Source: Paenibacillus faecis | GTDB lineage: Bacteria; Bacillota; Bacilli; Paenibacillales; Paenibacillaceae | Assembly (NCBI RefSeq): GCF_008084145.1 | Contig: NZ_VSDO01000005.1 | Span: forward strand, 558,001-622,000 | DNA length: 64,000 nucleotides | Direction of reading: 5' to 3' | Shown here: positions 23,794 to 64,000 of the stretch, one piece after another | How the letters are laid out: each line of letters starts with the position of its first letter | Position numbering within the stretch: the stretch's first letter is position 1 | The notes under the pieces: generated by a model | What the model saw: only the letters and a program-made list of their open reading frames with translations | Database searches by the model: none | Told to the model about the DNA's origin: nothing | Program-made: the position numbers and the translations under genes

Positions 23794-23946
23794 TTGAAGA
23801 GCAGCGATCGCAACAGCAATCTGTTAACACATCGTGAACGGGAAGTTTTCGAACTCCTCGTGCAGGATAAAACGACGCGCGACATTGCGGGCCAACTGTT
23901 TATCAGCGAGAAAACCGTCCGAAATCATATTTCTAATGTAATATAA
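23794..23946 (+). pseudogene. gerE: gerE, 5' half, truncated by prophage insertion
   Basis: A TTG-started frame after GGAGGGGTGA encodes 50 residues. Residues 10-49 (LLTHREREVFELLVQDKTTR, DIAGQLFISEKTVRNHISNV) are nearly identical to B. subtilis GerE, a 74-residue LuxR-type regulator of late mother-cell spore-coat genes. The frame then reads I-stop, where GerE continues with MQKLGVKGRSQ. The lost part is the final dimerisation helix. AT-rich sequence unlike the host follows directly, beginning with a terminator and then prophage genes. As it stands the protein should be inactive unless excision restores it. Confidence 0.92.
23930..23946. other. Left prophage junction (attL) inside gerE
   Basis: Host gerE sequence is recognisable to about ATTTCTAATGTAAT (23930-23943); afterwards the sequence no longer matches GerE coding capacity. 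A normal gene would continue ..GTA ATG CAA AAG.., so the shared core could be the few bases up to AAT at 23941-23943. The partner site (attR with the gerE 3' half) is not within the window, so the core length is unknown. Confidence 0.65.
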
Positions 23947-23949
23947 TTT

Positions 23950-23981
23950 GAAGCACACAACATTGTGATGCTTCTTTTTTT
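23950..23981 (+). terminator. Terminator just inside the prophage left end
   Basis: GAAGCA-CACAA-CA-TTGTG-A-TGCTTC hairpin with seven T after it. It follows the truncated gerE by four bases and would stop gerE transcription from entering the prophage. Confidence 0.8.
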
Positions 23982-24017
23982 GTACATATACATTTATCGA
24001 ATGGAGGAAAACTGAGA

Positions 24018-24365
24018 ATGGGGATGGTTACAATGAAAGAGGAAATGAATGCCGGTGATCTGAGGGTACAGATTGACTATGAAGCGATTGAAAAGAAGAG
24101 CAGTAAGGAATTTGTGGGTAGGTTAAAGAAAATGTTCGGTCCATATGGGAGTTGGGAGTGTACCTTCTTCCTTGAGGAAGACACCCCAAGTCATTACTGT
24201 CTTTATTTAGCCAATGGTTTTTATTTGGAGATGCATGATAAAACGGCTCATGACGAGGTCATCTACGCACAGTATTCCAAAAAAGACGGCGTAATCAGTA
24301 TAAACAGCATGAACACTATTTTTCTGAAACGTTTTGCTCCGATCGGAGTATCAGTGAACGAATGA
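24018..24365 (+). CDS. Unknown protein, prophage left arm
   Basis: A 115-residue soluble protein with GGAGG at 24003-24007. An N-terminal basic helix (EKKSSKEFVGRLKKMFG) is followed by strands containing aromatic residues (WECTFFLEEDTPSHYCLYLA). No motif is recognised. It is the first gene after attL, AT-rich relative to the host, and co-directional with the next genes. Such positions often hold lysogenic-conversion genes. Confidence 0.65.
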   Translation: MGMVTMKEEMNAGDLRVQIDYEAIEKKSSKEFVGRLKKMFGPYGSWECTFFLEEDTPSHYCLYLANGFYLEMHDKTAHDEVIYAQYSKKDGVISINSMNTIFLKRFAPIGVSVNE

Positions 24366-24453
24366 ATTAGTAGTTCCTGTATTACTGGAGTGGTATCTTA
24401 TCTCCGTGATAAAGAAATGGTATACTCAAGAAAATGAAAACGGAGGCTGTTTT

Positions 24454-29303: not shown

Positions 29304-29831
29304 ATGGCCAAAAATAAAGCGGAAGAGACAAAACTGCATGATAGAGTCGTCGGAACCGGGGAATTGGCGGCCATTATCGGGAAATCGGATCGATGGGTCC
29401 GGCAGCTGACTGGGGAAAAGGTGCTCACGCAGGTGGAACGCGGCAAATATATTCTTGGCGACGCGATCCAAGCTTACATCGAGCACGCCTCTGGTGGTAA
29501 GGATGACGATAAGAAGCCGCGGCTCATCGATTATAAGACAGAACACGAAAAGGCGAAGGCCGAAAAGGCCGTGCTTGAACTGGAGCAGATGAAAGGGAAT
29601 CTTCATGTGGCGGGAGATGTTGAACGCCTGCTTTCGGATCTCATCCTGACAACAAAATCCCGGCTGCTTGGGGTGCCGAGTCGGATCGCAACGGAGTGTG
29701 AAAACGAACCTGCCGATGTGGTAGAGGCGGTTGTTCGCCGGGAGATTGAAACCGTGCTGGCAGCTCTGGCGAAGTACACCCCGGATAAGATTGGGGGCGA
29801 AATAGATCATGGTAGCACAGAAGACGATTGA
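29304..29831 (+). CDS. Terminase small subunit (Nu1-like)
   Basis: A 175-residue protein. An N-terminal winged helix (VGTGELAAIIGKSDRWVRQL) should bind the packaging site. A charged helical region (DYKTEHEKAKAEKAVLELEQ) follows, and the C-terminal part contacts the large subunit. This order is that of lambda Nu1 homologues. AGGTGAG precedes the start. It overlaps the large-subunit gene by 23 bases. Confidence 0.85.
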   Translation: MAKNKAEETKLHDRVVGTGELAAIIGKSDRWVRQLTGEKVLTQVERGKYILGDAIQAYIEHASGGKDDDKKPRLIDYKTEHEKAKAEKAVLELEQMKGNLHVAGDVERLLSDLILTTKSRLLGVPSRIATECENEPADVVEAVVRREIETVLAALAKYTPDKIGGEIDHGSTEDD

Positions 29832-31680
29832 TCTATTTGTCCGGGCAAACAAGCAGTGGGAACCGAAGAGGCGGCTTTCTGTTTCTGAGTGGGCCGACGT
29901 TAACCGGATTCTCACGACGGAAAGCAGCGCGGAGCCGGGGCCGTGGCGGACTGATCGTGCGCCATATCAGCGTGAGATTATGGATTCCATTGAAAAATGG
30001 GAAGAGGTCGTAATCATGGCCTCGGCGCAGGTCGGGAAAACGGAATTTCTACTTAATGTTACCGGATCGTATATCGATCAGGAGCCTTGCCCTATCCTGC
30101 ACGTGCTGCCCAATGACACTTTGATTCAAGCCTATTCGAAAAAGCGGCTCACCCCTATGATCAACAGTAGCGAAGTGTTGAGGTCTAAAATTGGAGTTGC
30201 TAAGTCGCGCGGTAGCAGCAATACCATTGATGAAAAATCCTTCCCCGGTGGTTACGTGGCAATTGCAGGGGCCAATGTCCCGGAAGACCTTTCGTCGCGA
30301 CCGATTCAGATTGTCTTATGCGACGAAGTTGATAGGTTCCCAGTTTCATCCGGGAAAGAAGGTGATCCGATTGCACTTGCAACAGCTCGGACAAAAACCT
30401 ATCGGCATAAGCGGCGGCATCTGTTCGTATCGACTCCCGTCGATAAAGAGACATCCCGAATCTATCAGCTTTACGAAGATAGCACAATGGAGCAGTGGTG
30501 CTTACCATGCCCACATTGTGGCGAACTTCAACCGCTCAAATTTAAGAGGGGGAAGGATTGGGGGATTGTATTCGAGCACTATGTCTCTGAGTCCGGCGAA
30601 ATCGTAGTGACCAAGGCGGAACACCGCTGCGCATACTGCGGCATGCTTGGCTCAGAAAAGGAATGGAAGCGGGGCGAGGGCCAGTGGATTGCTCAGAAAG
30701 AACACTCAACCCGTCGCGGATTCCACATCAACCAGCTTTCCAGCCCGTGGTCAGATTGGCGCGAGGTTGCGAAGGCTTTTTTGGTTGCAAAAAGAGAGGG
30801 TGTCGACAAGCTTAAGGTTTTCGTGAACACCGTATTAGGCGAGCCGTGGGAGACAAAGGTCAAGGGCGTCGATGAAAAGACGCTGGCAGCTCGCCGAGAG
30901 CGTTATGAATATGAGGTTCCCGAAGGCGTCAAGATTCTCACCGCAGCGATCGATACCCAGGACGACCGATTCGAGGTTGAAGTTATCGGGTGGGGAGCCG
31001 GGAAAGAGTCATGGAGGATCGAATACCATCGTATTTACGGCGATTTGGATAGGGAAGAGGTGTGGGAACGGCTCGACGAATACCTTTGCCGATCCTGGAC
31101 TGGGCCAAACGGAAGGGAATTCCGAATTGTCGGAGCTTTCATGGACTCAGGCGGCCATTACACCAAAGAGGTATATGCGTTCACGAAAGCACGAAATTAC
31201 CGGAACATCTACGCTATCAAGGGCGTGGGTAAAACAGCGAAAACGGCTCACGATATCCCATTTATCGCAGGCCACAGCAAAACTCAAATCGAGAAAGCTG
31301 TATTGATCAAGCTCGGCGTAGATGATGGCAAGGTGAAAGTCTTCGATTCGCTGAAAGTCGATAAGCCCGGTCCCCTCTACTGTCACTTTCCTGGCGAGGA
31401 TAAGGGTTACACCGAGGAATATTTCCTTGGTCTGACTTCCGAAACGCAGAGGATCGTTACTCAAGAAGGTGTTAAGTACAAGACTTGGGTCAAGATTAGG
31501 GACCGCAACGAGCCGTTCGATTTGGCGGTGTACAATAGAGCGGTCCTCGAGATGCTTAGACCGAACCTCTCCTTGCCAGTTGAAAGACAGCCTAATGGGC
31601 CAAAGGTTACTCCGGGTGGAATGACTCAGATTCAAAGGGCGAGGAAATCGAAGAAAAAGAACGTCACGAGCAGTATATAG
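29809..31680 (+). CDS. Terminase large subunit, GpA family
   Basis: A 623-residue packaging ATPase-nuclease of the lambda GpA family. Walker A at 71-79 (ASAQVGKTE), Walker B around IQIVLCDEVDRFP at ~165-177. A Cys-x2-Cys zinc pair (CPHCGELQPLKF, CAYCGML) lies in the middle. The nuclease domain begins near AAIDTQDDRFEVEVIGWG. It cuts concatemers and translocates DNA into the prohead. Full family length. First gene of the structural operon proper. Confidence 0.95.
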   Translation: MVAQKTIDLFVRANKQWEPKRRLSVSEWADVNRILTTESSAEPGPWRTDRAPYQREIMDSIEKWEEVVIMASAQVGKTEFLLNVTGSYIDQEPCPILHVLPNDTLIQAYSKKRLTPMINSSEVLRSKIGVAKSRGSSNTIDEKSFPGGYVAIAGANVPEDLSSRPIQIVLCDEVDRFPVSSGKEGDPIALATARTKTYRHKRRHLFVSTPVDKETSRIYQLYEDSTMEQWCLPCPHCGELQPLKFKRGKDWGIVFEHYVSESGEIVVTKAEHRCAYCGMLGSEKEWKRGEGQWIAQKEHSTRRGFHINQLSSPWSDWREVAKAFLVAKREGVDKLKVFVNTVLGEPWETKVKGVDEKTLAARRERYEYEVPEGVKILTAAIDTQDDRFEVEVIGWGAGKESWRIEYHRIYGDLDREEVWERLDEYLCRSWTGPNGREFRIVGAFMDSGGHYTKEVYAFTKARNYRNIYAIKGVGKTAKTAHDIPFIAGHSKTQIEKAVLIKLGVDDGKVKVFDSLKVDKPGPLYCHFPGEDKGYTEEYFLGLTSETQRIVTQEGVKYKTWVKIRDRNEPFDLAVYNRAVLEMLRPNLSLPVERQPNGPKVTPGGMTQIQRARKSKKKNVTSSI

Positions 31681-31708: not shown

Positions 31709-31939
31709 ATGCCGAGGATAACATACGAAGAAGCCAAAGCGAAATACAAAATGTGGAGTGATGCAGAGGATGCGCGTTCAACTGGGGCGGCTTATTCCAT
31801 TGCGGGCCGATCGTTAACGAGAATCCCCATGGAAGAAATCCAAATGATGAAACGAAAGTATGGCCGAATCATTGATGCGTATGAGAATGGCGGCAAACGT
31901 CGTTCCAGAACGTCGGGATTTTACCCTGTTGACCGATGA
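31709..31939 (+). CDS. Head-tail joining/DUF6148-like small protein
   Basis: A 76-residue basic helical protein between terminase and portal, AAGGAGGTGAG upstream. YEEAKAKYKMWSDAEDARST and SLTRIPMEEIQMMKRKYG resemble gpW-type or DUF6148 small head proteins found in the same place. Overlaps the portal start by 4 bases. Confidence 0.75.
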   Translation: MPRITYEEAKAKYKMWSDAEDARSTGAAYSIAGRSLTRIPMEEIQMMKRKYGRIIDAYENGGKRRSRTSGFYPVDR

Positions 31940-33621
31940 ACATCATTGATAAGGCGCTAAACGTATTCGCTCCAGGAATTGCCGCCAAGCGCGAGCAGGC
32001 CAGAACGGAGGTTGTGCGACAACAAGCGGTCCGGAAGGTCGCCAATAGCTTAATTGGAGGATCTGGGAGCAACGGGCGAGGTTATGGTAAGCATGGGGCC
32101 AGCACAACCAAGTCATCCATGATGTTCTGGCAGACCCCTGTCGGCGATGCTGACACGGATATCCATCAGAACGTACCAAAACTGCGCGAGAGGGCGCGGG
32201 ACCTGCATATGGGTTCTGACATCGTCGCCGCAGCTCACAAAGGACTACGGACCAATATTGTCGGAACCGGATTGCGGCTGAATCCAGCCTTTGACGCCTC
32301 ATATCTTGGTTTAACTAAAGAACAAGCTGAGAAGCTGCGTAGCTCCATTCAACGGGAATGGGCTTTGTGGGCCGAGACGACCAAGTGTGACGCGGCCGGC
32401 CTGAACGATTTTTATGAACTGCAAGGGCTAGCCTTTATTTCAACCCTTATGAGCGGCGATGTGTTCGCACTGATGCCAAGCAAGCCGCGTCGTTGGTCAG
32501 TGTATGACCTTAAGGTGAATCTGATCGAGGCCGATAGATGCGCAACCCCTCCGGATAAGGTCAACATTGATAGGGAACGTATTCAATCGGGGGTCGAGGT
32601 TGATTCAGACGGAATGGTTGTAGCTTACCACTTCAGCAACCGCCACCCCGGCGCAGGTGGGTACAGCTTGAGCGGAGTCAACGAATGGGTACGCGTTGAA
32701 AAATACGGCAAGCGCACCGGGCGAGTGAACGTACTCCACTTGTTCGAGGCGGAAAGGCCAGGGCAACGCCGGGGCATCCCGGTCATCGCTCCAATCATCG
32801 AATCGCTGAAGCAGCTAAGCCAGTACACGGATGCCGAACTTGCCGCCGCAGTAATCACATCCATGTATACAGTCTTTATCACGACGCCGGCAGATGACGA
32901 GGGAGGAAGCCCGTTTGATGGCGTCGGGATGGATGATGAGGATCTGGACGGTGTTGATAGTGTACCGGGTGCTACAGGAGACGAGATTAAGCTTGGACGA
33001 GGGGCTATCATGCGGACCGATCCGGGGGAGGATGTCAAATTCGCCGACCCCACAAGGCCGAATCCTAACTATGAGGCATTTGTCCGAGCCATGCTTAAGC
33101 AAATGGCCGCGGCCCTCGAGCTTCCATACGAGATCCTGACAAAGCAGTTCACTAGCTCTTATTCAGCTTCCCGCGGCGCCCTGTTGGAAGCCTGGAAAAT
33201 GTATCGTATGCGCCGCTCTTGGCTCGCAAAAACGTTCTGTCAGCCCATCTATGAAGAGTGGTTTGTGGAGGCAGTAACCAAAGGAAGAATTGACGCACCC
33301 GGCATCTTTGATGATCCGGCTATTTTTGCTGCCTACACAAAGGCGGAATGGCATGGACCATCGCAGGGATTGCTTGACCCAACCAAAGAGGTACAAGCAG
33401 CCGTCATGCGGATTGACAACAATTTATCCACCGGAACGCGCGAAACAGCCGAGATCAATGGTGGATCGTGGGAAGACAACGTCCAGCAGCGTGCATATGA
33501 GCAAAGCCGCCTGAAAAAGTTAGGGCTTGTGCAAGCTGCTCCAGCGCCTGTCACACTGTCCGAACCTTCAAATGAAGGCGACGAAGACAACGACGACGAG
33601 GAAGGGGGTGAACAGAACTAA
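31936..33621 (+). CDS. Portal protein (lambda gpB family)
   Basis: A 561-residue portal that forms the ring at one capsid vertex for DNA entry. LRERARDLHMGSDIVAAAHK, NIVGTGLRLNP, SGDVFALMP, HLFEAERPGQRRGIPVIAP and LPYEILTKQFTSSYSASRGA are typical of lambda-type portals. The C-terminus is acidic (GDEDNDDEEGGEQN). The gene overlaps the upstream ATG by 4 bases and shares its final A with the protease start. Confidence 0.95.
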   Translation: MNIIDKALNVFAPGIAAKREQARTEVVRQQAVRKVANSLIGGSGSNGRGYGKHGASTTKSSMMFWQTPVGDADTDIHQNVPKLRERARDLHMGSDIVAAAHKGLRTNIVGTGLRLNPAFDASYLGLTKEQAEKLRSSIQREWALWAETTKCDAAGLNDFYELQGLAFISTLMSGDVFALMPSKPRRWSVYDLKVNLIEADRCATPPDKVNIDRERIQSGVEVDSDGMVVAYHFSNRHPGAGGYSLSGVNEWVRVEKYGKRTGRVNVLHLFEAERPGQRRGIPVIAPIIESLKQLSQYTDAELAAAVITSMYTVFITTPADDEGGSPFDGVGMDDEDLDGVDSVPGATGDEIKLGRGAIMRTDPGEDVKFADPTRPNPNYEAFVRAMLKQMAAALELPYEILTKQFTSSYSASRGALLEAWKMYRMRRSWLAKTFCQPIYEEWFVEAVTKGRIDAPGIFDDPAIFAAYTKAEWHGPSQGLLDPTKEVQAAVMRIDNNLSTGTRETAEINGGSWEDNVQQRAYEQSRLKKLGLVQAAPAPVTLSEPSNEGDEDNDDEEGGEQN

Positions 33622-34709
33622 TGCCAAAACGAATTAATTTTTACGGTACAGTCGTGCCGAATGACGATGCTTGGTTTTATGAGTGGTTCGAAATGGACTA
33701 TGTTAGCCCTCGGTTGATAAACGAACAACTTAAGGAAGCCAACGGTGATGATGTGGAATTATACATCAATTCCGGCGGGGGAGAAGTTTGGGCAGGATCG
33801 GAGATTTACACGGCTTTGCGTGAATATTCCGGGAACGTAACAGCCAAGGTCGTCGGCGTTGCTGCAAGTGCCGCGTCCGTTGCGATGTGCGGAGCTAAAA
33901 CGGTCATGGTGTCACCAACAGCCCAGATAATGGTTCATCGATCTTTGACAGTGGCGTCTGGCAATAAAAACGTATTTGATCAGGCTTCACAAATGCTTAA
34001 TAGCGTAGATGAAGGCATGCTCAACGCTTACGAACACAAGACTGGCAAGGATCGTGCCGAACTGTTGGCTTTAATGGACGGTGAAACATTCTTCAACGCC
34101 CAGGAAGCTATTACTCATGGATTCGCTGATGAAATTATGTTTGCCCAAACAGAGAAGGTTGTCGCTTCCGTGTCAGCACCAGTGTTTTCGAACGAGATTA
34201 TGAACAAAATCAAGTCGAAACTGATCCGTGAAAACATGTTACCCGGTGGTGCACCTGCCGCATCTAGCGGCCCAGAAAATCCAGAACCTAAGGCAAAAAA
34301 AGAAAATGAGGAGGACGCAAAACCTATGGATATGAACGAATTGAAGGAGAAATACCCTGATCTGTACGCGCAGATCACAAACGAGGCACAAGCGGCCGAG
34401 CGTGCTCGCATTTCTGCTTTACAAGCGTTCGCGACAGCCCCAGGCGCCGCACAATTCATCAACGAGGCTATTACGAACGGTGAAACTGTTCAGGATGTTG
34501 CGGTGAAGGTTATGGAGGCTTCGATGAAACGAGCAGGCCAAGAGGCTACAAACCGAAAACTTGATGCAGAGGAAAGCGGCGTTGATGACGTTGAAGCAAT
34601 CGAGGCAAAAACACCAGACGCAGCCAAAGAAGAGAAGAAAGCCAATGCAGTGGCCAGCATGATTGCTATGGCCCAGAAAATTAAATCTAAGAATGGAGGA
34701 CGTATGTAA
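33621..34709 (+). CDS. Head maturation protease (ClpP-type) fused to a scaffold domain
   Basis: A 362-residue protein. Residues 1-190 are a ClpP-like serine protease: IYINSGGG-type oxyanion strand (LYINSGGGEVWAGSEIYTAL), catalytic Ser86 in GVAASAASVAMCG and His105 in QIMVHRS. Residues ~230-360 are charged and helical (MDMNELKEKYPDLYAQITNE) and should act as the internal scaffold, as in lambda C/Nu3. It ends where the decoration gene begins (shared A). Confidence 0.92.
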   Translation: MPKRINFYGTVVPNDDAWFYEWFEMDYVSPRLINEQLKEANGDDVELYINSGGGEVWAGSEIYTALREYSGNVTAKVVGVAASAASVAMCGAKTVMVSPTAQIMVHRSLTVASGNKNVFDQASQMLNSVDEGMLNAYEHKTGKDRAELLALMDGETFFNAQEAITHGFADEIMFAQTEKVVASVSAPVFSNEIMNKIKSKLIRENMLPGGAPAASSGPENPEPKAKKENEEDAKPMDMNELKEKYPDLYAQITNEAQAAERARISALQAFATAPGAAQFINEAITNGETVQDVAVKVMEASMKRAGQEATNRKLDAEESGVDDVEAIEAKTPDAAKEEKKANAVASMIAMAQKIKSKNGGRM

Positions 34710-35116: not shown

Positions 35117-36160
35117 ATGCCATCTTACCATGAAATTTTAGAGATTCCAACACTGGTGCAGGTCGTTGAAGCATTTCCGGAGGACTCTTACTACCTGACC
35201 GACACATATGCAAGTGAGGGCAGGGTCTTCGAAACAGATGAAATCGAAATTCAAACTAAGAAGGGTCACCGCCCGTTGGCGCCGTATGTAAATGAATTGC
35301 TTCCCGGCAAGGTTGTTTTGCGTACAGGTTTCACATCCAAAACATATCGGCCGGCGTTGCTGAAACCGATGCGGGTCATTACCCGACACGATTTGAAAGT
35401 GAAGCAGATCGGCGAAACGCTGCTCAATCCGAAGAATCCCGAGGAACGATACCAGGAACTGATTGTAGAGGACCTAGCTGATCTGACGGATACTATCGAT
35501 CGTCGTAAAGTGCAGCAACTCTCTCAAACCATGTTTACTGGTAAAACCGAGCAGATCGGTGAAGGAGTAAGCCAGATTCTTGACTGGGGTTTCACGAATA
35601 TTGAGGTGCTGTCAGGAACCGACTTTTCGGATGATTCTTTCAACGTTGTAGAGTACCTCACCGAAAAGAAGATGGAAGTAATGCGAAAGAGCGGGAGGAC
35701 GATGCGTAGAGTGCTGACAACCTATGAAGTCGGTACCAGAATTACGAGCCATCCATCTTTGCTTGCGCTGATCGAGGCTAAGAAAGAAACTCTGGATGTG
35801 GGTAACCTCAACCGTGAAATCTTGCCCGAAGGCGTAGTATATCACGGATATCTGCGACAAGCTGACCTTCACATTTGGTCCTATACCAACTCTTATACTG
35901 ATGAGGAAGGCAAAGAGGTGAGTTACATCCCGGCTGGAACACTTGCTTTGCTGCCTGATGGAAAACCATTTGAGTTCCTTTATGGCGCGAACCTGGTTGC
36001 CAACGATGAAGGCGCCTTTGTTTTTGCCCAGGCAAAGATTTTCCCACAAGTACTGAGTGAGAAAGAGCCGCCAAGTCGTAAGTTGCAATTGCTGTCACGT
36101 CCTATTTGTGTTCCTGGTAACGTCGATGGCTGGTATGTAGCTAAGGTTCTCAAAAAATAA
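35117..36160 (+). CDS. Major capsid protein (lambda gpE family)
   Basis: A 347-residue HK97-fold capsid subunit of the Phage_cap_E family. LRTGFTSKTYRPALLKPMRV, TDTIDRRKVQQLSQTMFTGK, RTMRRVLTTYEVGTRI and the late PSRKLQLLSRPICVPGNVDG are family traits. AAGGAGG at 35100. Full length. Confidence 0.94.
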   Translation: MPSYHEILEIPTLVQVVEAFPEDSYYLTDTYASEGRVFETDEIEIQTKKGHRPLAPYVNELLPGKVVLRTGFTSKTYRPALLKPMRVITRHDLKVKQIGETLLNPKNPEERYQELIVEDLADLTDTIDRRKVQQLSQTMFTGKTEQIGEGVSQILDWGFTNIEVLSGTDFSDDSFNVVEYLTEKKMEVMRKSGRTMRRVLTTYEVGTRITSHPSLLALIEAKKETLDVGNLNREILPEGVVYHGYLRQADLHIWSYTNSYTDEEGKEVSYIPAGTLALLPDGKPFEFLYGANLVANDEGAFVFAQAKIFPQVLSEKEPPSRKLQLLSRPICVPGNVDGWYVAKVLKK

Positions 36161-38145: not shown

Positions 38146-39582
38146 ATGCCAGAATTTCACGGTGTAAGAGCAACCGAAATTTTTGCCCCAAGGGCAGCGG
38201 TGGTGCAAACCAATACGCTGCCTATTTATTTTGGCACCGCGCCGATCAACCAGGTGGCGAACCCGGCGGAAGCGGTGAACAAGGTCATACTGGCAACAAG
38301 CTTCGAAGACTTTAAGGCGAAACTAGGCTACTCGGAGGATTGGAAGTCATACACCCTCTGTGAGGCGGCCTATGCCCATTTTGTGGAGTCTGAGCAGGGC
38401 CCGGTCGCCTTTGTTAACGTCCTTGACGTAACCGACACCGAGACGACGGCGCCGGCCGATGCTAAATTTACCGACGGCATGTTTACGATCCCGAAAGACG
38501 GGGTCTTGAAGGCTTCGGTATCGGTTGGGGATGGAACAACCACCTATCAAGCGGGGAAAGACTACGCCCTTGCGTTTGACGCTGCGGGCAAGCTTGTGAT
38601 CGCAATCATGAGCGGCGGGACCATTCCGGCCGGAACGACTACCCTCAAGGTAGGATACAAAGCCCTGAAGCCATCCGCGGTTAATGCTGCCCGCATTATC
38701 GGTGGGACTGACTCACAAACTGGCGTCCGGACGGGCCTGGAACTGATCGAGGACGTATTCCTTGAGACCTCGTTCGTGCCGAACCTCATCGTCGCCCCAG
38801 GCTGGTCGGACAATCCTACGGTGGCGGCCATAATGGTTGCCAAGGCGAAGGATATCAACGGCCTTTTTGAGGCGCATGCGGTCACTGATCTTGACGCTGG
38901 CCAGAAGTATGTGGATATTCCGGCATGGAAAGAAGAAAACGGGTATACCAGTCACCTGCAGACTAATACCTACCCGATGGCCACGTATAAGGGCCGCGTT
39001 TACCACATGTCTACGCTGGTCACGGCGACCATGGTCGCAACCGATCAGAAAAACGGAGGGATTCCGGTCCAGACCCCGTCCAATCAGCCGATCACAGCCG
39101 ATGGGTTTGTCTACAAAGACGGTTCGGCCGTTCGACTTCCGTTTGATCAGGCCAACATCCTGAACTCCAATGGTATTGTAACGGGGAGCCGCTGGCAGGA
39201 CGGCTTTAAAGCCTGGGGCAACCGCACGGGAGCATACCCAGAGTTCACCGACGCTCAGCGAGCGTTTATCCCCGTTCGGCGGATGTTCTCATACATCAAA
39301 AATAACCTCGTGCTCCGTCACTGGCAGCAGGTAGACAATCCGCTTGATCGCCGGCTGATTGAGTCAGTCACAGACGGCGCAAACATTTGGATCAACGGCC
39401 TAGTCGGTGCAGGTTACCTTCTTGGCGGGCGCGTTGAGTTCTGGGCATCTGACAATCCGCCGGACCAGCTGGAGAATGGGAAAATGAAGTATCGCGTGTT
39501 TATTACGCCGCCATCCATGGCCCAAGAGATTGGCTTTACGGTCGAATACGACCCAATTTATTTGGCTGCTCTGGCAGCTTAA
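38146..39582 (+). CDS. Contractile tail sheath protein
   Basis: A 478-residue sheath subunit. PEFHGVRATEIFAPRAAVVQ, NLIVAPGWSDNPTVAAIMVA, SNQPITADGFVYKDGSAVRL, ANILNSNGIVTGSRWQDGFK, YIKNNLVLRHWQQVDNPLDR and the C-terminal strand FTVEYDPIYLAALAA are diagnostic. It makes the phage a myovirus type. Confidence 0.96.
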   Translation: MPEFHGVRATEIFAPRAAVVQTNTLPIYFGTAPINQVANPAEAVNKVILATSFEDFKAKLGYSEDWKSYTLCEAAYAHFVESEQGPVAFVNVLDVTDTETTAPADAKFTDGMFTIPKDGVLKASVSVGDGTTTYQAGKDYALAFDAAGKLVIAIMSGGTIPAGTTTLKVGYKALKPSAVNAARIIGGTDSQTGVRTGLELIEDVFLETSFVPNLIVAPGWSDNPTVAAIMVAKAKDINGLFEAHAVTDLDAGQKYVDIPAWKEENGYTSHLQTNTYPMATYKGRVYHMSTLVTATMVATDQKNGGIPVQTPSNQPITADGFVYKDGSAVRLPFDQANILNSNGIVTGSRWQDGFKAWGNRTGAYPEFTDAQRAFIPVRRMFSYIKNNLVLRHWQQVDNPLDRRLIESVTDGANIWINGLVGAGYLLGGRVEFWASDNPPDQLENGKMKYRVFITPPSMAQEIGFTVEYDPIYLAALAA

Positions 39583-39603: not shown

Positions 39604-40122
39604 ATGGCACAAAACATCCCAGTAAAATTGGTCGGCCTCCGGTCGTTTCTCAACGATACAGAGTTTGCAACCGCTGATATCACACTGCCGTCACTCACTC
39701 AGATGACTGACACTTTGTCCGGGGCAGGTATTTTAGGTGAGTTGGACCTCCCGTCACCGGGCCATTATTCTTCCCTTGAATTGGGGGTTGCCTGGAAGAC
39801 CATTAACACTGGCGTTTTTAGCATTGCCGGTGCAGAGGAAGCCTCCATGGAATTCAGGGGGGCTTTTCAAGAATACGAGGTAAACAAAGGACTCGTAACA
39901 AAGGCTATCAAGATTGTCATTCGCGGCCATAGCAAGGGAATCGACCTCGGTACACTGGCGCAAAACGCGGCCACTGACACATCAAACACTGTCGAAATCA
40001 CGTACATCAAGATTTTTATCGAAGGATCGTCTGTGTTTGAACTGGATAAATTCAATTATATTTTCCGGATCAACGGCAAGGATGCCTTGTACGATGTGAG
40101 AAAAGCCCTCGGGTACAATTAA
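39604..40122 (+). CDS. Major tail tube protein
   Basis: A 172-residue tube subunit (P2 FII family). ATADITLPSLTQMTDTLSGA, LDLPSPGHYSSLELGVAWKT, AIKIVIRGHSKGIDLGTLAQ and ELDKFNYIFRINGKDALYDV are typical. Follows the sheath gene as in P2. Confidence 0.94.
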   Translation: MAQNIPVKLVGLRSFLNDTEFATADITLPSLTQMTDTLSGAGILGELDLPSPGHYSSLELGVAWKTINTGVFSIAGAEEASMEFRGAFQEYEVNKGLVTKAIKIVIRGHSKGIDLGTLAQNAATDTSNTVEITYIKIFIEGSSVFELDKFNYIFRINGKDALYDVRKALGYN

Positions 40123-40492: not shown

Positions 40493-40656
40493 GTGATAAC
40501 CCTCTTCGAAAGCTGATGAAATGGTCAATAAAGCTATCTCGTATGGGCGGCGATCCGAATAGTTGGATGAGCCGTCCTATTTGGCTTTTGTACGAATGGT
40601 TTCTGGCCCGTGGTGAATTACATGAAGAAGAACGTCAAGCGAGAGAAGGGGGTTGA
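40471..40656 (+). CDS. gpE' extension made by -1 programmed frameshift
   Basis: From the T TTT TTG site the -1 frame is open to TGA 40654-40656. It adds about 59 residues (DRFGLSDNPLRKLMKWSIKL, then MGGDPNSWMSRPIWLLYEWF and a Glu/Arg end). The full product is about 171 residues. The segment has no own good ribosome binding site, and tape-measure ATG 40659 follows directly. P2-like phages use a gpE plus gpE+E' pair to chaperone the tape measure. Confidence 0.85.
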   Translation, partial: FFDRFGLSDNPLRKLMKWSIKLSRMGGDPNSWMSRPIWLLYEWFLARGELHEEERQAREGG

Positions 40657-40658
40657 CC

Positions 40659-43565
40659 ATGGCAGGAAAAAAGCAGTACGAAATGTCATTTGAATTAAAT
40701 GGGAAAATCGACCCCCGACTCACGCGGTCGTTCGATAGCCTTTCTCGGGATGTGACCGGGCTTGAAAAGGACCTTGGTCAGCTACGGCGAACCAAGAGCT
40801 TGGACAAGATTACTCGGGAAGCGGATCATGCGTCCGGCGCTTTCGGTGAGTTGAGGGAGAACGTCCGGGAATTCGGAGACATCCTGCAGCGCGTCGGGCA
40901 ATATACTGGAGCCTATGCGATCATCGAAAAGGTGACCGGCTCGATCGGCGAGATGGTAAGCACGATTGGGCAACTTGATGCACAATCGGGGCAGCTCGGC
41001 GCAGCCACCGGGGCAACGGCCGAGGAATTACAGGAGCTCCAAGGAATTTCCCAGTCCCTGTATCGTCAAGGTCTCGGCGAGGGCGTGAACGACCTGACGG
41101 ATGCGCTGGTCGTTGCTCGTAACGTAACCAAACAGCAGGGCGATGAACTCGAGCGTACGGCCAAAAATGCGATTGTATTGCAAGACGTATTTCGATTTGA
41201 TATTCCTGAATCCCTAAAGGCTTCGGACACCATGATGCGGCAATTCAGCATCACCTCCGAACAGTCGATGAACCTTCTGGCACAGGGGGCGCAGCGGGGG
41301 CTGGATAAGTCCGGCGAGCTGCTGGACTCCGCGAACGAGTACGCGCCGCAGTTTGCCGCGCTTGGATACTCCGCAAATGAGATGTTCGACTTCTTCGCGG
41401 CCGGTCTTGAGGCCGGTGCGTGGAATCTGGATAAGGTTGGGGATCTGGCGAAAGAGTTCAATATCCGGATCCAGGACGGCAGCGATAAGACAGCGAGCGC
41501 CCTTGCGGCCTTGTTTGCTCCCGATGATATCGAGAAATTTACGATGGCTTTGACCAAAGGCGGGACCAAGTCGGCTGAATACCTGGAACTGCTCAAGCAC
41601 GTCTCCGCTGATACCGCGAAGCAAATGGTCAAGGACCTACAAAAGGGCGGCAAAGGGTCCGAGGATACCTTTAAGGCGCTGTCCGGCATCATGGGCGAAG
41701 GTAACAAAATACTCACGGACCTGAGCACTGGCGCTCTCAAGGGTAAAGATGTCATGCAAAAGGTCATCGCCCAGCTCAACAGCATTGACAACAAGGTATA
41801 TCGCAACGCGCTGGGCGTGGAGCTTTTCGGCACCCAGTGGGAGGACCTGGAGAAGGACGTCGTGGCCGCACTCGGTAATGTTCAGCATCAATTTCACATG
41901 ACTGAGTCAACCATGGAAGACATGGCGGCGGTCAAATACGACAACCTGGCGCAGGACCTGAAGGTTCTCGGCCGCGAACTGATGGAAGAAGTGGTCATCC
42001 CGATCGGCGAGGACCTGATGCCGGTGCTGCGCGATTTAACAGCTTGGGCCTCGGATAACAAAGACCTGATAAAGACCCTTGCTCTCGCCGTTCCGGCGGG
42101 CATGCTCGCTAAAAATACCGTCTCTATGGGCAAGGACTTTGCCAAGGTGGGCAAATCTTTGATGGGTACCGTGGATAAGGTGGGGAAATTTGGCGGAGCG
42201 ATTGGCCTCTTAACCAATCCGATCGGTCTCGCCGTCGGTGCACTCGGTGCCCTTACACTCGGCGTGATCGCCTATAAGCATCATCAGGAAAAGGCAAGGC
42301 AAGAACTCATCAACATGGGCGACGCCATCGATAAGGCATTCGACGACTATGCTGCTGTCGAGGGCCAGACCAACAGGACGAAGGAACTCATTAAAGAGTA
42401 CGACCGTCTGAAAGATAAGATCAACAACGCCAAGACACCTGCCGCAGAGCTGACAGAAGCCCGGCGTAAGATGGCGGATGTTGAACAGGAACTGATTGAT
42501 CTTAACCCGGATATTCTGCGGGCCGAAGATGCCAAGAGTGAGAGTTTCCGTGAACAGTTGGGTCTTGCTGATGAACTAAATCAAAGTCGTGCTGAGATGG
42601 CTCGCCGTGAAGTGGAAATGTCGGTTATGGAAGGCCAAGCAGACCTTCCGGAATTGGTAGAAGAGTATGGCCGACTAAATCAAAAGTTGGCCGATACCGA
42701 CGAAGCTTACCAAAAAGCTAAAGCTAGTTACGCGCAATACTCTGACTACGTCAATCGCCAGCAAGAAATTGTTAATGACCCTTCCTTGTCAGAAGATCAG
42801 GAGAGTACTAAGTTATATGAACTTGCTGCTGAGATAGAAAAAGCTACTGGCAATTATTACGCCGGGAACTGGGCTAATTTAATGAGTGATTTTCATAATT
42901 TCAAGGGTGTTATCGACGAGAATTATGAATCATGGAAGAAAACTCAGCAGGAAATCATCGACACGGAACAAAGTTTCCAATCTCTCTATGACAACCAGAA
43001 GGCGCTTATCGAAATGGACTTGGGCGGGACAATAGGTGAGCAAGCTTCCAAGTATAAAGAGTTGTCCACCGCCGAAAAGCAGCGATTTGATGCAGCCATG
43101 CAGGACATCGCGGAACTCAATCGGGCAATGGACATGATCCCGGATGCTAAAAAGGTGAACATCGAGCTCGTTTGGCAGCAAACTGGAACAATTCCGGATA
43201 TGTCTACCCCGGCCGGCAAGAAGCTAAAGCAAATCCAGTTACGGGACCCAGGCTTTAATGGTTATGCCGAAGGAGCCCATATTACCTCACCAGAATTGGC
43301 ATGGGTCGGCGAGGGCGGCGACGATGAGTTTATCATCCCGGTCAACAACTCCAAACGCTCCCACGCTCTATATGCGGCTGCTGGGGAGGCTTTGGGGTAC
43401 AGCACCGGAGGCGGTAACTTTGCGCCAGTTTACAGTCCAGTGCTGAATTTCTACGCCCCGGTGGATAAGGGGGCGGTTAGTGATGCCCTTAAGGATAACC
43501 AAGGTGACTGGGAGCGAAAACTCAAGCAATATCAGCAACAACAGCAGAGGGTGAGCTTTAAATGA
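40659..43565 (+). CDS. Tail tape measure protein
   Basis: A 968-residue protein that fixes tail length and may enter the host at infection. Long charged helical stretches at the N- and C-terminal parts (for example LTRSFDSLSRDVTGLEKDLG, ELNQSRAEMARREVEMSVME) surround the TMP core (LSGIMGEGNKILTDLSTGAL, VIAQLNSIDNKVYRNALGVE). A hydrophobic segment at ~525-550 (GAIGLLTNPIGLAVGALGAL) is typical. Start ATG 40659 rather than TTG 40653. Base composition shifts toward AT after ~42,550, suggesting a recombined C-terminal part. Confidence 0.94.
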   Translation: MAGKKQYEMSFELNGKIDPRLTRSFDSLSRDVTGLEKDLGQLRRTKSLDKITREADHASGAFGELRENVREFGDILQRVGQYTGAYAIIEKVTGSIGEMVSTIGQLDAQSGQLGAATGATAEELQELQGISQSLYRQGLGEGVNDLTDALVVARNVTKQQGDELERTAKNAIVLQDVFRFDIPESLKASDTMMRQFSITSEQSMNLLAQGAQRGLDKSGELLDSANEYAPQFAALGYSANEMFDFFAAGLEAGAWNLDKVGDLAKEFNIRIQDGSDKTASALAALFAPDDIEKFTMALTKGGTKSAEYLELLKHVSADTAKQMVKDLQKGGKGSEDTFKALSGIMGEGNKILTDLSTGALKGKDVMQKVIAQLNSIDNKVYRNALGVELFGTQWEDLEKDVVAALGNVQHQFHMTESTMEDMAAVKYDNLAQDLKVLGRELMEEVVIPIGEDLMPVLRDLTAWASDNKDLIKTLALAVPAGMLAKNTVSMGKDFAKVGKSLMGTVDKVGKFGGAIGLLTNPIGLAVGALGALTLGVIAYKHHQEKARQELINMGDAIDKAFDDYAAVEGQTNRTKELIKEYDRLKDKINNAKTPAAELTEARRKMADVEQELIDLNPDILRAEDAKSESFREQLGLADELNQSRAEMARREVEMSVMEGQADLPELVEEYGRLNQKLADTDEAYQKAKASYAQYSDYVNRQQEIVNDPSLSEDQESTKLYELAAEIEKATGNYYAGNWANLMSDFHNFKGVIDENYESWKKTQQEIIDTEQSFQSLYDNQKALIEMDLGGTIGEQASKYKELSTAEKQRFDAAMQDIAELNRAMDMIPDAKKVNIELVWQQTGTIPDMSTPAGKKLKQIQLRDPGFNGYAEGAHITSPELAWVGEGGDDEFIIPVNNSKRSHALYAAAGEALGYSTGGGNFAPVYSPVLNFYAPVDKGAVSDALKDNQGDWERKLKQYQQQQQRVSFK

Positions 43566-43765: not shown

Positions 43766-43767
43766 TC

Positions 43768-45948: not shown

Positions 45949-47078
45949 GCAGCAGTTTTGACACGTTAAAGGATATCGATTTTGTGGATGTTGACCCGAC
46001 TGAAATCCAAAACAGCATTATTACCACGTTTGAGGCTATCGACGGCACCCGGTTATATCCGGCGGACCCGAGACGCCTCTTTTTATTGGCTCTGGCTCAA
46101 ATCATCATCCAGCAGCAAGCGCTCCTTAACCACAACAAAAAAAACGATCTGCTCAAATACGCAAGCGGGCCGATGCTGGATCATATCGCGGTCTTGTACG
46201 ATGTGACCCGGTTACCAGCTGAGCCAGCAATCACCACGCTCCAGTTTAACCTGTCGATCCCACTCACATCGGCGACGATTATCCCGGCGGGGACCCGGGT
46301 CGGCCCGGCGAGCGGCGCCGGAACCATCCTCTTTATGACGGATAAGGTGCTGGAGATACCTGCGGGAGGAGTATCAGGCACCGTCATGGCCTCTTGTACG
46401 GTCCCGGGGATTGTGGGCAACGGATTCCTTGCCGGGCAGCTGAACACGCTTGTTGACCCCATTCCATTCATCCAGAGCGTCGCAAATATCACCGAGAGCA
46501 CGGGCGGGGCCGAGGAGGAGACGGACGACGCTTTCCGCTCGCGTATCCGATCCGCTCCGGAGAGCTTCTCCGTGGCGGGGCCAGAGGGGGCGTATCGGTA
46601 TTGGGCGATGACGGCGAGCTCGTCGATCATTGATGTGGCAGTCAAGTCGCCGGCGCCTTGTGAGGTCGTCGTGGTACCGCTCCTGCGGGGAGGCGAGCTC
46701 CCCACGGAAGACATCCTTAACGACGTTTCGGCTGTACTCAATGACAGGTCAGTCCGGCCGCTTACTGATCAGGTAACCGTCCAGGCCCCTGAAAAGGTCA
46801 ATTACAACATCGACATCAAGTTTTATGTGGACCGTGCGCGGGCTACGGAGGCGACAAGTGTAGAGGCGGCGGTAAAAGCGGCGGTGGACACATACCGACT
46901 ATGGCAAAAATCCAAGCTTGGCCGCGACATTAACCCTTCGGAGCTGATCTGGAGGGTAATGTCGGCGGGGGCGCTGCGGGTAGAGGTTACGGCACCGGTA
47001 TTTACGGAAGTATCCGAACTGCAAGTGGCCCAGGACGCCACCGTCAATGTCGTAAATGGAGGCCTTGCCGATGATTGA
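45945..47078 (+). CDS. Baseplate protein J
   Basis: A 377-residue Baseplate_J protein, TTG start in the stop of the preceding gene. LYPADPRRLFLLALAQIIIQ, TTLQFNLSIPLTSATIIPAG, ESTGGAEEETDDAFRSRIRS, SVAGPEGAYRYWAMTASSSI and GRDINPSELIWRVMSAGALR are typical. Wedge component. Confidence 0.95.
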   Translation: MSSSFDTLKDIDFVDVDPTEIQNSIITTFEAIDGTRLYPADPRRLFLLALAQIIIQQQALLNHNKKNDLLKYASGPMLDHIAVLYDVTRLPAEPAITTLQFNLSIPLTSATIIPAGTRVGPASGAGTILFMTDKVLEIPAGGVSGTVMASCTVPGIVGNGFLAGQLNTLVDPIPFIQSVANITESTGGAEEETDDAFRSRIRSAPESFSVAGPEGAYRYWAMTASSSIIDVAVKSPAPCEVVVVPLLRGGELPTEDILNDVSAVLNDRSVRPLTDQVTVQAPEKVNYNIDIKFYVDRARATEATSVEAAVKAAVDTYRLWQKSKLGRDINPSELIWRVMSAGALRVEVTAPVFTEVSELQVAQDATVNVVNGGLADD

Positions 47079-50922: not shown

Positions 50923-51135
50923 ATGAACAAATGGAAAAACTATGGGATGTGGGTATCATTGGTATCGGCTGTTTTGCTGGCGGTGCAGGCATGCGGAGAT
51001 ATTTTGGGGTTTCAGCTTGCCCCCGAAAAGTACGATCAGATCATGACGGCCGTGAATGCCCTTCTGGGGGTTCTGGTTGTGCTTGGGATCGTTAGCAATC
51101 CGGAAGCAGGGAAGGGGTTCAGAGACAAGAAGTAG
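50923..51135 (+). CDS. Second holin (phi LC3 family)
   Basis: A 70-residue protein with two membrane spans (MWVSLVSAVLLAVQACGDIL; ITAVNALLGVLVVLGIV-like segment) and YDQIMTAVNALLGVLVVLGI, SNPEAGKGFRDKK end. This is the phage_holin_1/phi LC3 pattern. Two bases after the lysin. Confidence 0.9.
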   Translation: MNKWKNYGMWVSLVSAVLLAVQACGDILGFQLAPEKYDQIMTAVNALLGVLVVLGIVSNPEAGKGFRDKK

Positions 51136-58468: not shown

Positions 58469-58511
58469 CCCAATAATCTAACTTTTATTCACATGGAAAG
58501 GAATGGTGCAA

Positions 58512-59231
58512 ATGAACAAGCTTCAGATCGTTAATCACGATGATCAACGGGTTTTAACAACGTCCCAACTTGCGGAGGCATTTGGTACTGAAAGCAAAAT
58601 CATCACAAACAACTTTTCCCGTAATAAGGATCGGTACACTGCAGGGAAGCACTATTTCGAGCTTCGAGGTCAGGAACTGGATGATTTCAAAGGTTCACAT
58701 CAATTTGATGCCAACCTTAAATTCGCCCCTGTCATTTACCTCTGGACCGAAAAAGGCGCTTGGATGCACGCCAAGTCGCTCAACACAGACCAAGCTTGGG
58801 AAGCTTACGAGATGCTGGTGGACGATTATTACCGGGTTAAGTCTAACCCCTACGGACAGCTTAGCCAAGAGCTTCAAGCGATATTCATGCTCGATCAGCG
58901 TACCCAGGAGTTTGAGGTCCGGGTGGCCCGGCTGGAGAACAACACGACTATTGATTACGGCCAGCAAAACGACCTGCAGTTGATAGCCAATAAAACAATC
59001 GTCTCCCTGCTCGGAGGAAAAGAGAGTCCGGCCTACTTAGACAAGACGATCCGGAGCGAGACTTACTCGGCGCTCTGGCGGGACTTCAAAGGATACTTCA
59101 ACACCAACTCTTACAAAAACACCTTGGTGAAGGACTTTGACAAGGCGAAGGAATATGTCGCCAGCTGGCGGCCACACGGAAAGTTACTGCGGGATATAGA
59201 ACAGGCCAATACTCAAATGGCCTTCAGTTAA
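58512..59231 (+). CDS. ORF6N/ORF6C-domain antirepressor-like protein
   Basis: A 239-residue protein. ORF6N domain at ~1-100 (TTSQLAEAFGTESKIITNNF, YTAGKHYFELRGQELDDFKG, VIYLWTEKGAWMHAKSLNTD). ORF6C-type C-terminus (ARLENNTTIDYGQQNDLQLI, SETYSALWRDFKGYFNTNSY). Such proteins are phage antirepressors or early regulators. AAAGGAATG before ATG 58512. Confidence 0.88.
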   Translation: MNKLQIVNHDDQRVLTTSQLAEAFGTESKIITNNFSRNKDRYTAGKHYFELRGQELDDFKGSHQFDANLKFAPVIYLWTEKGAWMHAKSLNTDQAWEAYEMLVDDYYRVKSNPYGQLSQELQAIFMLDQRTQEFEVRVARLENNTTIDYGQQNDLQLIANKTIVSLLGGKESPAYLDKTIRSETYSALWRDFKGYFNTNSYKNTLVKDFDKAKEYVASWRPHGKLLRDIEQANTQMAFS

Positions 59232-62293: not shown

Positions 62294-62442
62294 AACAGGG
62301 CAAGAACCCCACTCGCCGCCAGATGATCACAATCAAGGAAGCAGGTCTGAACCCGGAAAACTGGCTTGTGTCCAAGGCGCTTCCGGATCGCCTGGTTCTA
62401 ACCCACCGTTTCGCTGGAACAGAAAAAACCATCTTCATTTAG
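62290..62442 (+). CDS. DUF6906-like small protein
   Basis: A 50-residue basic protein (GKNPTRRQMITIKEAGLNPE, NWLVSKALPDRLVLTHRFAG). ATG 62290 overlaps the previous TGA. The pattern RRQ...I.AGLNPxNWLV matches DUF6906 proteins of Firmicute phages. Role unknown. Confidence 0.75.
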   Translation: MKQGKNPTRRQMITIKEAGLNPENWLVSKALPDRLVLTHRFAGTEKTIFI

Positions 62443-62457
62443 GAGGCAATTATTCAT

Positions 62458-63372
62458 ATGGCAGGTACAAATCAACTAGCAACAATCGGAAACTGGAGTA
62501 TCGAAGATATCGAAACAATGAAGCAGACACTTGCCGCAGGAACAACGGATTCACAGTTTCAGTTGTTCTTACGGACGGCGCACGCATCGGGACTCAATCC
62601 TTTCTTAAATCATATTTACGCCATTGTCTACCAAGGAAAAATGTCGCTGCAGATCGGTATTGAGGGGATTGCATACCTTGCAAAGCAACATGAGGGATAC
62701 CGAGGCTATGATGCCCAAATCGTCTGCGAAAACGACACATTTAAAGCCAAGAAATCCACCGTTTATAACGAAAAAACCGGGGAACGCGAAGATGAATGGA
62801 TCATTGTAGATCATGAAATCGGGTTCCCGCGTGGAAAAATCGTTGGTGCGTACGCCATTGCCTATCGGGACGGATTCCCACCGTTCACTGTCCTGATGGA
62901 TTGGAGCGAAGTCGAGCATTTTTTAAACAGCCAAATCCCGAACCAAAAAACGATGTGGACAAAGTACACGGCCGATATGTTCAAAAAGCACGTAGCGAAA
63001 CGAGCTTTGAAAGGGCAATTTGGAATCGACATCAGTGAGGATGATATCCCGGGTGCAGGATCTATCCTACCGGAATCCGAACCACAGCGCCGCGACATCA
63101 CCGCTGAAGTTAATGCAGCAGCCCAAAAGGAAGAGCCTAAACATGAGACACCGGCTGACGACGCTGACGAACTCAAAAAATGCCGCGAAAAAATGAAGGA
63201 GAATTTTTCGAAATTGGGTATCACCACGCCGGAGGGGATAGAAGAATACATCGCCAATCACGGCAAGATCAAAGGCGAGAAACCGACGCTTGCCGAATAT
63301 AAGGCGCTCCTGAAGGTCATGGACCTCCATATCGCTGAGAAGCAGGCAGCCGATGACTCGCTCCCGATGTGA
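62458..63372 (+). CDS. recT: RecT-family recombinase
   Basis: A 304-residue single-strand annealing protein. SDSQFQLFL-type N-terminus (TTDSQFQLFLRTAHASGLNP, FLNHIYAIVYQGKMSLQIGI), EGIAYLAKQHEGYRGYDAQI, IVGAYAIAYRDGFPPFTVLM and WTKYTADMFKKHVAKRALKG are diagnostic. The Glu/Lys-rich C-terminus binds partners. AGGAGG upstream. Works with the SbcC-like protein or an exonuclease in strand annealing. Confidence 0.93.
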   Translation: MAGTNQLATIGNWSIEDIETMKQTLAAGTTDSQFQLFLRTAHASGLNPFLNHIYAIVYQGKMSLQIGIEGIAYLAKQHEGYRGYDAQIVCENDTFKAKKSTVYNEKTGEREDEWIIVDHEIGFPRGKIVGAYAIAYRDGFPPFTVLMDWSEVEHFLNSQIPNQKTMWTKYTADMFKKHVAKRALKGQFGIDISEDDIPGAGSILPESEPQRRDITAEVNAAAQKEEPKHETPADDADELKKCREKMKENFSKLGITTPEGIEEYIANHGKIKGEKPTLAEYKALLKVMDLHIAEKQAADDSLPM

Positions 63373-63565
63373 AGTCGAACAACTGGACCTATTTGGCGGC
63401 GCTGATCTAAGCGGCGAGAAGCCGCTAAACGGCGTGTACTACGAGAAGGCGACGGACTTGTTCGTTTCCTTCTCCAGGGGACGCCGGTATAAGGAATGGC
63501 CGGCAAAGGGATGCACCTTTGACCGGGAATGGCAGGAACGAATCAAAAGGGAGCGAGCAATATGA
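63353..63565 (+). CDS. Small early protein after recT
   Basis: A 70-residue protein overlapping recT by 20 bases: EVEQLDLFGGADLSGEKPLN, GVYYEKATDLFVSFSRGRRY, then a basic tail. A QLDLFG-type motif recalls beta-clamp-binding peptides (QLxLF), seen in phage and host replication proteins. Function inferred only. Confidence 0.6.
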   Translation: MTRSRCEVEQLDLFGGADLSGEKPLNGVYYEKATDLFVSFSRGRRYKEWPAKGCTFDREWQERIKRERAI

Positions 63566-64000
63566 AGGTCGAGATTTTAGCAACCGGATCGAACGGTAAC
63601 TGTATCCACTTGCAAAGCGGCTCCACTGGGATCCTGATCGATGCCGGCAAGTGGAAGCGGGATTTGGAAAAGCGGCTGCTGGCTCGGGGGATCAATGCCG
63701 CGACGGATATCCAGGCCGTTTTCATTACCCACTCTCACGGGGACCATATCCGCGGCCTGACGCTGGCAAATAAGTACCGAGTCCAGGTTTGGGCCACCGA
63801 AGGCGAATGGAAAGGCATATCCGGTGTAGACGAGGAGCTGCGCCGGGTGCTGGAAACCCGTTGGAGCAAATATGATCCCGTTCAGATTGGCGAGCTGACG
63901 ATCCATCCCTTCCGAACTCACCACAATACCTACGAACCGGTTGGATACGCGATCGAGGACGATAGCGGCGCTCGGGCCTGCGTGGTGTTTGACACCGGCC
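63562..64000 (+). CDS. Metallo-beta-lactamase-fold hydrolase (partial, 3' end beyond window)
   Basis: The first 146 residues of an MBL-fold protein. N-terminal VEILATGSNGNCIHLQSGST, metal motif THSHGDHIRG at ~56, and a strand with His in HPFRTHHNTYEPVGYAI. Then GARACVVFDTG. YycJ/WalJ-like small MBL proteins look like this and act as nucleases or phosphodiesterases. The stop codon lies past 64,000. Confidence 0.85.
   Translation, partial: MKVEILATGSNGNCIHLQSGSTGILIDAGKWKRDLEKRLLARGINAATDIQAVFITHSHGDHIRGLTLANKYRVQVWATEGEWKGISGVDEELRRVLETRWSKYDPVQIGELTIHPFRTHHNTYEPVGYAIEDDSGARACVVFDTG

Follow-up and report, generated by a model that had tools for sequence, protein, structure and literature searches.

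A prophage inside gerE of Paenibacillus faecis as a probable sporulation-excised element, and its relatives in other spore-formers

The closest described relative of the element reported here is gin, which interrupts gerE of Bacillus cereus ATCC10987 and is excised in sporulation by GirC and GirX at Ile-Ser-Asn 47-49, the crossover being predicted to use a di-adenine (Abe et al. 2017, PMC5595907). The same paper names, as untested, a prophage in gerE of B. glycinifermentans BGLY (LT603683), whose integrase it gives as 52% identical to GirC, and a 2025 paper (PMC12453123) describes the entry of phage Xeni_IDv2 into gerE of Paenibacillus larvae B-3650, with nine bases repeated at its ends. For elements in other genes, sprB of SP-beta has a perfect sigma-E/sigma-K -10, a poor -35 and a transcript start 20 nt before the start codon, and spoIVCA and the C. 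difficile factor CD1234 are controlled by sigma-E and SpoIIID. Here, we analysed a 64,000-nt stretch of Paenibacillus faecis (the window; C5:558001-622000, where C5 is contig NZ_VSDO01000005.1 of a 6.34 Mb genome, G000, in 9 contigs), in which a contractile-tailed prophage splits gerE, whose product is a late regulator of the spore coat. This prophage adds another example to a kind already described, the removable elements in gerE, and we consider it probable that it is excised in step with sporulation, which would rebuild the gene. The reading draws on a scar-free join, a conserved recombinase and partner open reading frame (ORF), a box of mother-cell type before that ORF, and the presence of the recombinase in elements without room for phage genes.

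With gin, the window element shares the Asn codon (Asn49 in gin, Asn48 here), a predicted di-adenine crossover, a large serine recombinase with a small factor (here a candidate), and a scar-free join. It differs in carrying a complete-looking contractile phage, whereas gin, as described, has no phage genes and three recombinases; moreover, the gin factor has 42 amino acids (aa) and is encoded away from girC, whereas the small partner ORF of the window element overlaps the recombinase start. The comparison with GirC and GirX is one of description, not of sequence, and the likeness to the BGLY prophage, also inside gerE, likewise follows the published description alone. Phages Lily and Likha of P. 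larvae were compared by sequence and have a recombinase 48% identical to ours, a small ORF before it and an attP core AA with inverted arms. Xeni_IDv2 shares the integration in gerE, its recombinase itself lying outside the sequence comparison; the paper on it, in the passages cited, frames the case as lysogeny and resistance and does not mention sporulation-timed excision. SP-beta in spsM and skin in sigK of B. subtilis, and skin of C. difficile, are also phage or phage-like elements in a mother-cell gene with a serine recombinase. They occupy other host genes, and the yokA recombinase of the SP-beta-type phage Goe11 is only 24% identical; in SP-beta and skin, as published, the recombinase or directionality factor is under mother-cell control, whereas the window element offers a promoter-like box only. 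Judged as a sporulation gene-intervening element (the class of skin, SP-beta, vfbin and gin), it lies inside a mother-cell gene of which both parts are present, carries its own recombinase, and restores the frame when removed in silico, with no other copy of the gene found. In the open-licence literature searched, we found no account of the pattern across the family, of the series of cassettes, of the small partner gene and its promoter, or of the double cut described below.

The split gene and its junctions

gerE starts with the TTG at window position 23794, from which the reading frame gives LKSSDRNSNLLTHREREVFELLVQDKTTRDIAGQLFISEKTVRNHISN and then phage sequence; it is open over 47 codons and two bases before phage DNA begins. 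A whole-genome GerE search located the 3' part, in the same orientation as the 5' part, at C5:637353-637436. In L009, the stretch of the same genome that covers the right end of the prophage, this part runs to L009:17439, and the order is small ORF, large serine recombinase, attR, gerE 3' part. The distance from AA to AA across the insertion is 55,424 bp, and joining the flanks in silico gives a 73-residue GerE with the frame restored and no scar. The attP arms around the AA have 16 of 24 palindromic matches, compared with 6.5 after shuffling. At the level of sequence, this shows where the insertion lies, which site it occupies and that its removal would leave no scar.

The first-pass annotation of the window had proposed that a prophage splits gerE and that the 3' half, with a serine or tyrosine recombinase, would lie past position 64,000. 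Both expectations were borne out: the 3' part is found 55.4 kb on from the 5' part and about 15.4 kb beyond the window end, with a serine recombinase adjoining it. A second intact gerE elsewhere, which that annotation had named as counter-evidence, was not found in the whole genome by PF00196 (21 matches) or by a GerE query (26 matches up to E 10); apart from the two gerE parts, the matches are longer reading frames or weak hits. Its account of the first ~49 codons, through VRNHISNV, holds for the start at 23794 and not for the end, since the split falls at codon 48 and VRNHISNV includes one phage-derived codon. Its central idea, that the phage may excise in sporulation and so rebuild gerE, has the indirect support named in the introduction; the earlier cases of elements in gerE were not mentioned in it.

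The recombinase, its site and its partner gene among relatives

The window recombinase has Resolvase, Recombinase and zinc-ribbon domains (Pfam). A YVRVST motif is present in all 30 recombinases compared, and we take its Ser to be the N-terminal catalytic serine. Across a family sample of 295 genomes, searched with cut-offs of E<=1e-80 for the recombinase and E<=1e-16 for GerE, the recombinase occurs in 33 and GerE in 276. The latter comprise 242 genomes scored intact (that is, with a score like a full-length GerE match, 1.6e-31 or better, ranges being printed for best matches only), 33 split at codon 48, and G058, cut elsewhere. All but one of the recombinase carriers (32/33) are split at codon 48, the remaining one, G026, having gerE in three pieces, and none of the 242 genomes scored intact has this recombinase at the threshold. 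The one split genome below threshold, G014 (P. cisolokensis), contains a broken copy. That 33 of 276 genomes are split at the same codon makes the arrangement more than chance.

In the 35 genomes searched for the two parts, the 5' part was detected in 33 and the 3' part in 35. The halves lie on a single contig, in order and on the same strand, in 31 of the 33 split genomes, and both parts are open in all 33. Both junctions could be aligned in 30, and the crossover AA is common to every one of them; their attP arms match as inverted repeats at a mean of 16.6/24 positions against 6.5 after shuffling (lowest in G037, 10/24). By eye, uncut attP sites could be recognised between the tandem cassettes of G211 and, in seven distinct loci on phages or contigs, downstream of the recombinase. 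A gerE part lies within 10 kb of the recombinase in 48 of the 54 loci listed for named genomes, and two of the other six are alphaproteobacterial proteins, 27% identical. Locus L160 ends six codons into the gerE 3' part, L162 ends inside the att core, L204 (G258 by its coordinates) is divided between contigs, and the attP of L167 is uncut. Host genera listed are Paenibacillus, Cohnella, Fontibacillus, Aneurinibacillus, Neobacillus, Mesobacillus, Metabacillus, Peribacillus and Calidifontibacillus, together with Sulfoacidibacillus (a 31% identical protein). These data suggest that one recombinase clade, spanning phages to bare cassettes, uses the same att recognition. As a separate observation, G053, G207, G232 and G251 (L150) have a single 5' part but a gerE 3' part that follows it in two or three copies, as though elements had piled up on one another or had brought a gerE end with them.

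A second point of entry lies near codon 26. G058 had been scored as a codon-48 split from its E-value, which we rejected: its gerE (L153, L254) is cut near codon 26 by an element of ~41 kb, and the codon-48 site is uncut. P. selenitireducens (G026; L256, L154) has both insertions, one near codon 26 and one at codon 48, leaving gerE pieces at C12:326634, 335285 and 349368. The codon-26 recombinase is a different protein of 547-557 aa, not listed by the window recombinase search; relatives of its first 90 residues (E<=1e-20) occur in 9 of the 295 genomes, with insertion sites known for G058 and G026.

Elements range from 63-kb prophages to cassettes of 2.6-3.2 kb. Measured from gerE-part coordinates, with the nearest 3' copy taken, the spacing in the 31 one-contig cases exceeds 30 kb in 14, is 8-25 kb in 12, 5.7 kb in G211 and 2.6-3.3 kb in four. 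Four cassettes keep an open recombinase, the small ORF and about one cargo gene, namely DUF1360 in P. terrigena (G008), a DNA methylase in P. phyllosphaerae (G033), DUF2935 in P. nasutitermitis (G194), and a protein with an AAA match below the Pfam cut-off in Cohnella sp. (G211). They occupy four places in the recombinase tree (30 rows), some forks of which are weakly supported, and no sister of the small cassettes was found in 22 genomes of G194's genus or 37 of G211's. The G211 recombinase is sister, with full support, to that of a 59.7 kb element in G178; the two differ by 200.7 synonymous and 52.3 nonsynonymous changes, a nonsynonymous-to-synonymous ratio (pN/pS) of 0.074. In L144 (Cohnella sp. 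GbtcB17, G211), a 2.87 kb cassette is present twice in tandem, in almost identical copies with attP between them; this is a draft assembly and the duplication a possible artefact.

Other elements carry different cargo. In G005 (L148) and G037 (L149), the element that interrupts gerE contains a type IV pilus gene set, and the element is colinear in the two species, flanks included. Recombinase and small ORF are kept in both, with a recombinase pN/pS of 0.27 at synonymous sites 78% different; four other close recombinase pairs have 0.044-0.095. This pair is the best sign that the recombinase may be kept for something beyond phage growth. The element of Fontibacillus phaseoli (G181, L151) encodes an AbiE pair, a ThsA/SIR2-like protein and a PDC-S06-like protein. 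No phage structural genes were recognised among the tested proteins of the G005 and G181 elements.

All 30 loci compared have an ORF, initially called at 47-123 aa, that lies immediately ahead of the recombinase or overlaps it. Of 76 named or viral loci, 70 have a match to a profile of this partner ORF before the recombinase, the profile being partly built from the same genomes and the 76 including near-copies. The partner ORF had no match to a Pfam family, a solved structure or a known directionality factor, and in PHROGs nothing beyond a single match at E 0.087. From its position and conservation, the partner protein is likely a recombination directionality factor.

The DNA before the partner ORF carries a promoter-like sequence, which was compared over 71 of 107 upstream regions after removal of near-copies and prior exclusion of L206, L209, L210 and L236. 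These were divided into 34 elements grouped with the window's and a second group of 37 by percent identity and by the appearance of the DNA upstream, not by a tree. All 34 elements of the window's group have CATA 13-17 nt upstream of the ribosome site (3.6 expected, at most 8 in 200 single-base shuffles), in a count whose 10-26 nt range and ribosome site were chosen with CATA in view, and in which the CATA picked for L027 lies inside the ORF, the true one being visible separately. The stricter pattern CATANNNTA precedes the partner ORF in 30 of the 71 elements, against 5.0 expected and a shuffle maximum of 11. Upstream of gerE itself, CATANNNT[AG] is found in 51 of 52 regions; these represent one homologous promoter, drawn from 60 loci (the others being repeats or having no start) and counted with no shuffle control. 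In the second group this pattern is weak (14/37, with 7.2 expected and a shuffle maximum of 14), and [GT]ACAA-N8..11-[CA]ATA, a pattern chosen after looking, is present in 25 of 37 against 2.1 expected; it recalls SpoIIID-assisted sigma-E promoters. A GC-rich hairpin ends just before the promoter box, at L009:15530-15562 and in relatives; in 20 of 34 regions, picked for a visible hairpin, both partners have changed in five of its eight pairs, and 87.5% of cells are paired. We would guess that the hairpin shields the recombinase and partner pair from phage read-through.

Gene content of the prophage

From its sequence, the window element is a temperate, contractile-tailed, complete-looking prophage of a member of the Paenibacillaceae, with gerE as its attachment gene (Table 1). 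The contractile tail had been called in the first-pass annotation and is confirmed by PHROGs, in which nine of ten tested proteins match packaging, head, sheath, tape measure, tail and baseplate functions; the tenth is C39-peptidase-like by Pfam, with a single weak PHROGs match. The protein labelled head closure follows the sheath, a position that, at a guess, would suit a tail tube. Beyond the window end, the prophage encodes a DnaB helicase and a cytosine methylase, as well as a phage transcriptional activator (phrog_248) at the place where P. larvae phages have an ArpU-like annotation. The nearest recombinases among isolated phages are those of P. larvae phages; for the terminase, an Exiguobacterium phage ranks first (53.1%) and P. 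larvae phage Lily second (49.5%). Directly upstream of gerE, at window 22100-23676, a glycerol-kinase-like gene (named by eye) is spread over two frames (ORFs 22100-22966 and 22777-23676) with a break near 22950, which is either a frameshift or a sequencing slip.

Table 1. Coordinates of the gerE parts, att sites and prophage genes. Plain numbers are window positions.
Feature	Position	Strand	Remark
gerE 5' part	23794..23936	+	codons 1-47 and AA of codon 48 (Asn); TTG start
attL crossover dinucleotide AA	23935..23936		within codon 48, AAT
Right arm of attP as left in attL	23937..23960		paired with left arm kept in attR
Left 40 kb of the 55.4 kb gerE-interrupting prophage	23937..64000	+	continues to C5:637358, outside the window
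Terminator-like inverted repeat and T run (GAAGCA...TGCTTC-TTTTTTT)	23950..23981	+	just inside the phage; by eye
Terminase large subunit	29809..31680	+	phrog_15; Pfam GpA ATPase and nuclease
Portal protein	31936..33621	+	phrog_21
Head maturation protease	33621..34709	+	phrog_94
Major head protein	35117..36160	+	phrog_29; Pfam Phage_cap_E
Tail sheath (contractile tail)	38146..39582	+	phrog_23
Protein labelled head closure	39604..40122	+	phrog_55
Tail tape measure protein	40653..43565	+	phrog_1272; best match phrog_5218, without function
Tail protein	43747..44799	+	phrog_52
Baseplate wedge protein	45945..47078	+	phrog_6
Phage holin	50923..51135	+	PF04531
HTH_3 regulator, plausible phage repressor	57100..58014	-	Pfam
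ORF6N/ORF6C protein, plausible antirepressor	58503..59231	+	Pfam
Promoter-like CATAACCTA	L009:15563		upstream of partner ORF
Small partner ORF	L009:15589-15780	+	63 aa; overlaps recombinase start
Large serine recombinase	L009:15767-17332	+	ends just before right junction
attR crossover AA	L009:17359-17360 = C5:637359-637360		~15.4 kb beyond window end

Readings of the insertion

As read from the sequence, the recombinase split gerE by recombining attP with attB at the AA of the Asn48 codon. A promoter of mother-cell type before the partner gene would then switch on partner and recombinase once sigma-E or sigma-K is active, and the two proteins would cut the phage from the terminal mother-cell chromosome, rebuilding GerE when the late coat genes need it. 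The forespore would retain the prophage. We infer the role of the partner, the promoter and the mother-cell timing from sequence comparison, and the sporulation reading also leans on precedents with experiment, gin and sprB of SP-beta, as analogues described in the passages cited. Several points weigh against it. The partner ORF has no known family or structure, and its AlphaFold model is middling (pLDDT 77, pTM 0.47). The strict -10 pattern occurs in only 30 of 71 elements, the -35 side is an unclean match to sigma-E/sigma-K, and no match to either promoter pattern turned up in G005 or G037, the pair underlying the selection argument. In P. cisolokensis G014 (3.3 kb), the recombinase that lies between the intact gerE parts is broken. 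Finally, pN/pS of split gerE (0.030 for the 3' part and 0.033 for the 5' part, compared with 0.022 and 0.006 in an intact sample that is mostly one genus) gives no sign of decay, yet no proof of use after insertion.

The same junctions would arise if an ordinary temperate phage used gerE as attB and left only on induction, its host making spores without GerE at a cost and without developmental control. The complete look of the phage module fits such a lysogen, as does the P. larvae phage seen entering gerE on infection (PMC12453123, as cited above). So does the patchiness of the insertions, expected for repeated invasion: genus labels change 18 times on the recombinase tree (minimum 8, shuffled mean 19.8), and recombinases within two genera are mostly 46-66% identical, with one pair at 92%. 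Plain lysogeny does not, however, account well for a recombinase and partner ORF kept in four cassettes at four places in the tree and in the pilus-gene element of two species, nor for a conserved box before the partner ORF that is similar to gerE's own; and in B. cereus, excision at the same codon is reported as sporulation-specific (PMC5595907). We regard this explanation as unlikely, though it carries more weight than the others that follow. A dead gerE, in which the insertion is a tolerated and permanent knock-out, could draw on the 19 of 295 genomes in which GerE is missing at threshold. Sixteen of these are the whole sample of genus g8, in which no GerE was found (16/16); four of them searched again with gerE pieces gave only longer regulators. 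The broken recombinase of G014 and a frameshifted gerE in G120, a genome considered and rejected as an insertion, also fit. Both parts are nevertheless open, with no decay, in the 33 split genomes, and 32 of these have an open recombinase, so that a permanent knock-out seems very improbable. An assembly artefact or chimera, for which the 9-contig assembly might speak, was rejected and has a negligible chance of being correct: both junctions lie within one 738 kb contig, the att arms match, and the arrangement recurs on one contig in 31 split genomes.

Sporulation-timed excision thus remains the reading that we prefer for the window element, and because gerE is cut at the same spot in many relatives, removable inserts may serve as a developmental switch. 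With somewhat more for it than against it, a broader proposal is that gerE is a general docking gene of spore-forming Bacillales, entered by two recombinases (at codon 48 and near codon 26). Phages would time and again be reduced to cassettes of recombinase and partner, 2.6-3.2 kb long, or would exchange their phage genes for those of pili or defence, becoming developmentally spliced "DNA introns" that spores tolerate since the mother cell removes them; the 73-codon gene of P. selenitireducens would need two removals. Sporulation genes with an interruption have so far counted as a few separate examples. In the family sample, a regulator gene of 220 bases is split at a single codon in 33 of the 276 GerE-bearing genomes, by elements grading from complete-looking phage to bare cassette, and this graded series makes it testable whether selection to rebuild a gene domesticates phages into developmental switches. 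It also provides recombinases whose att sites can be read, together with candidate partner factors, and it offers a possible reason why such lysogens continue to sporulate.

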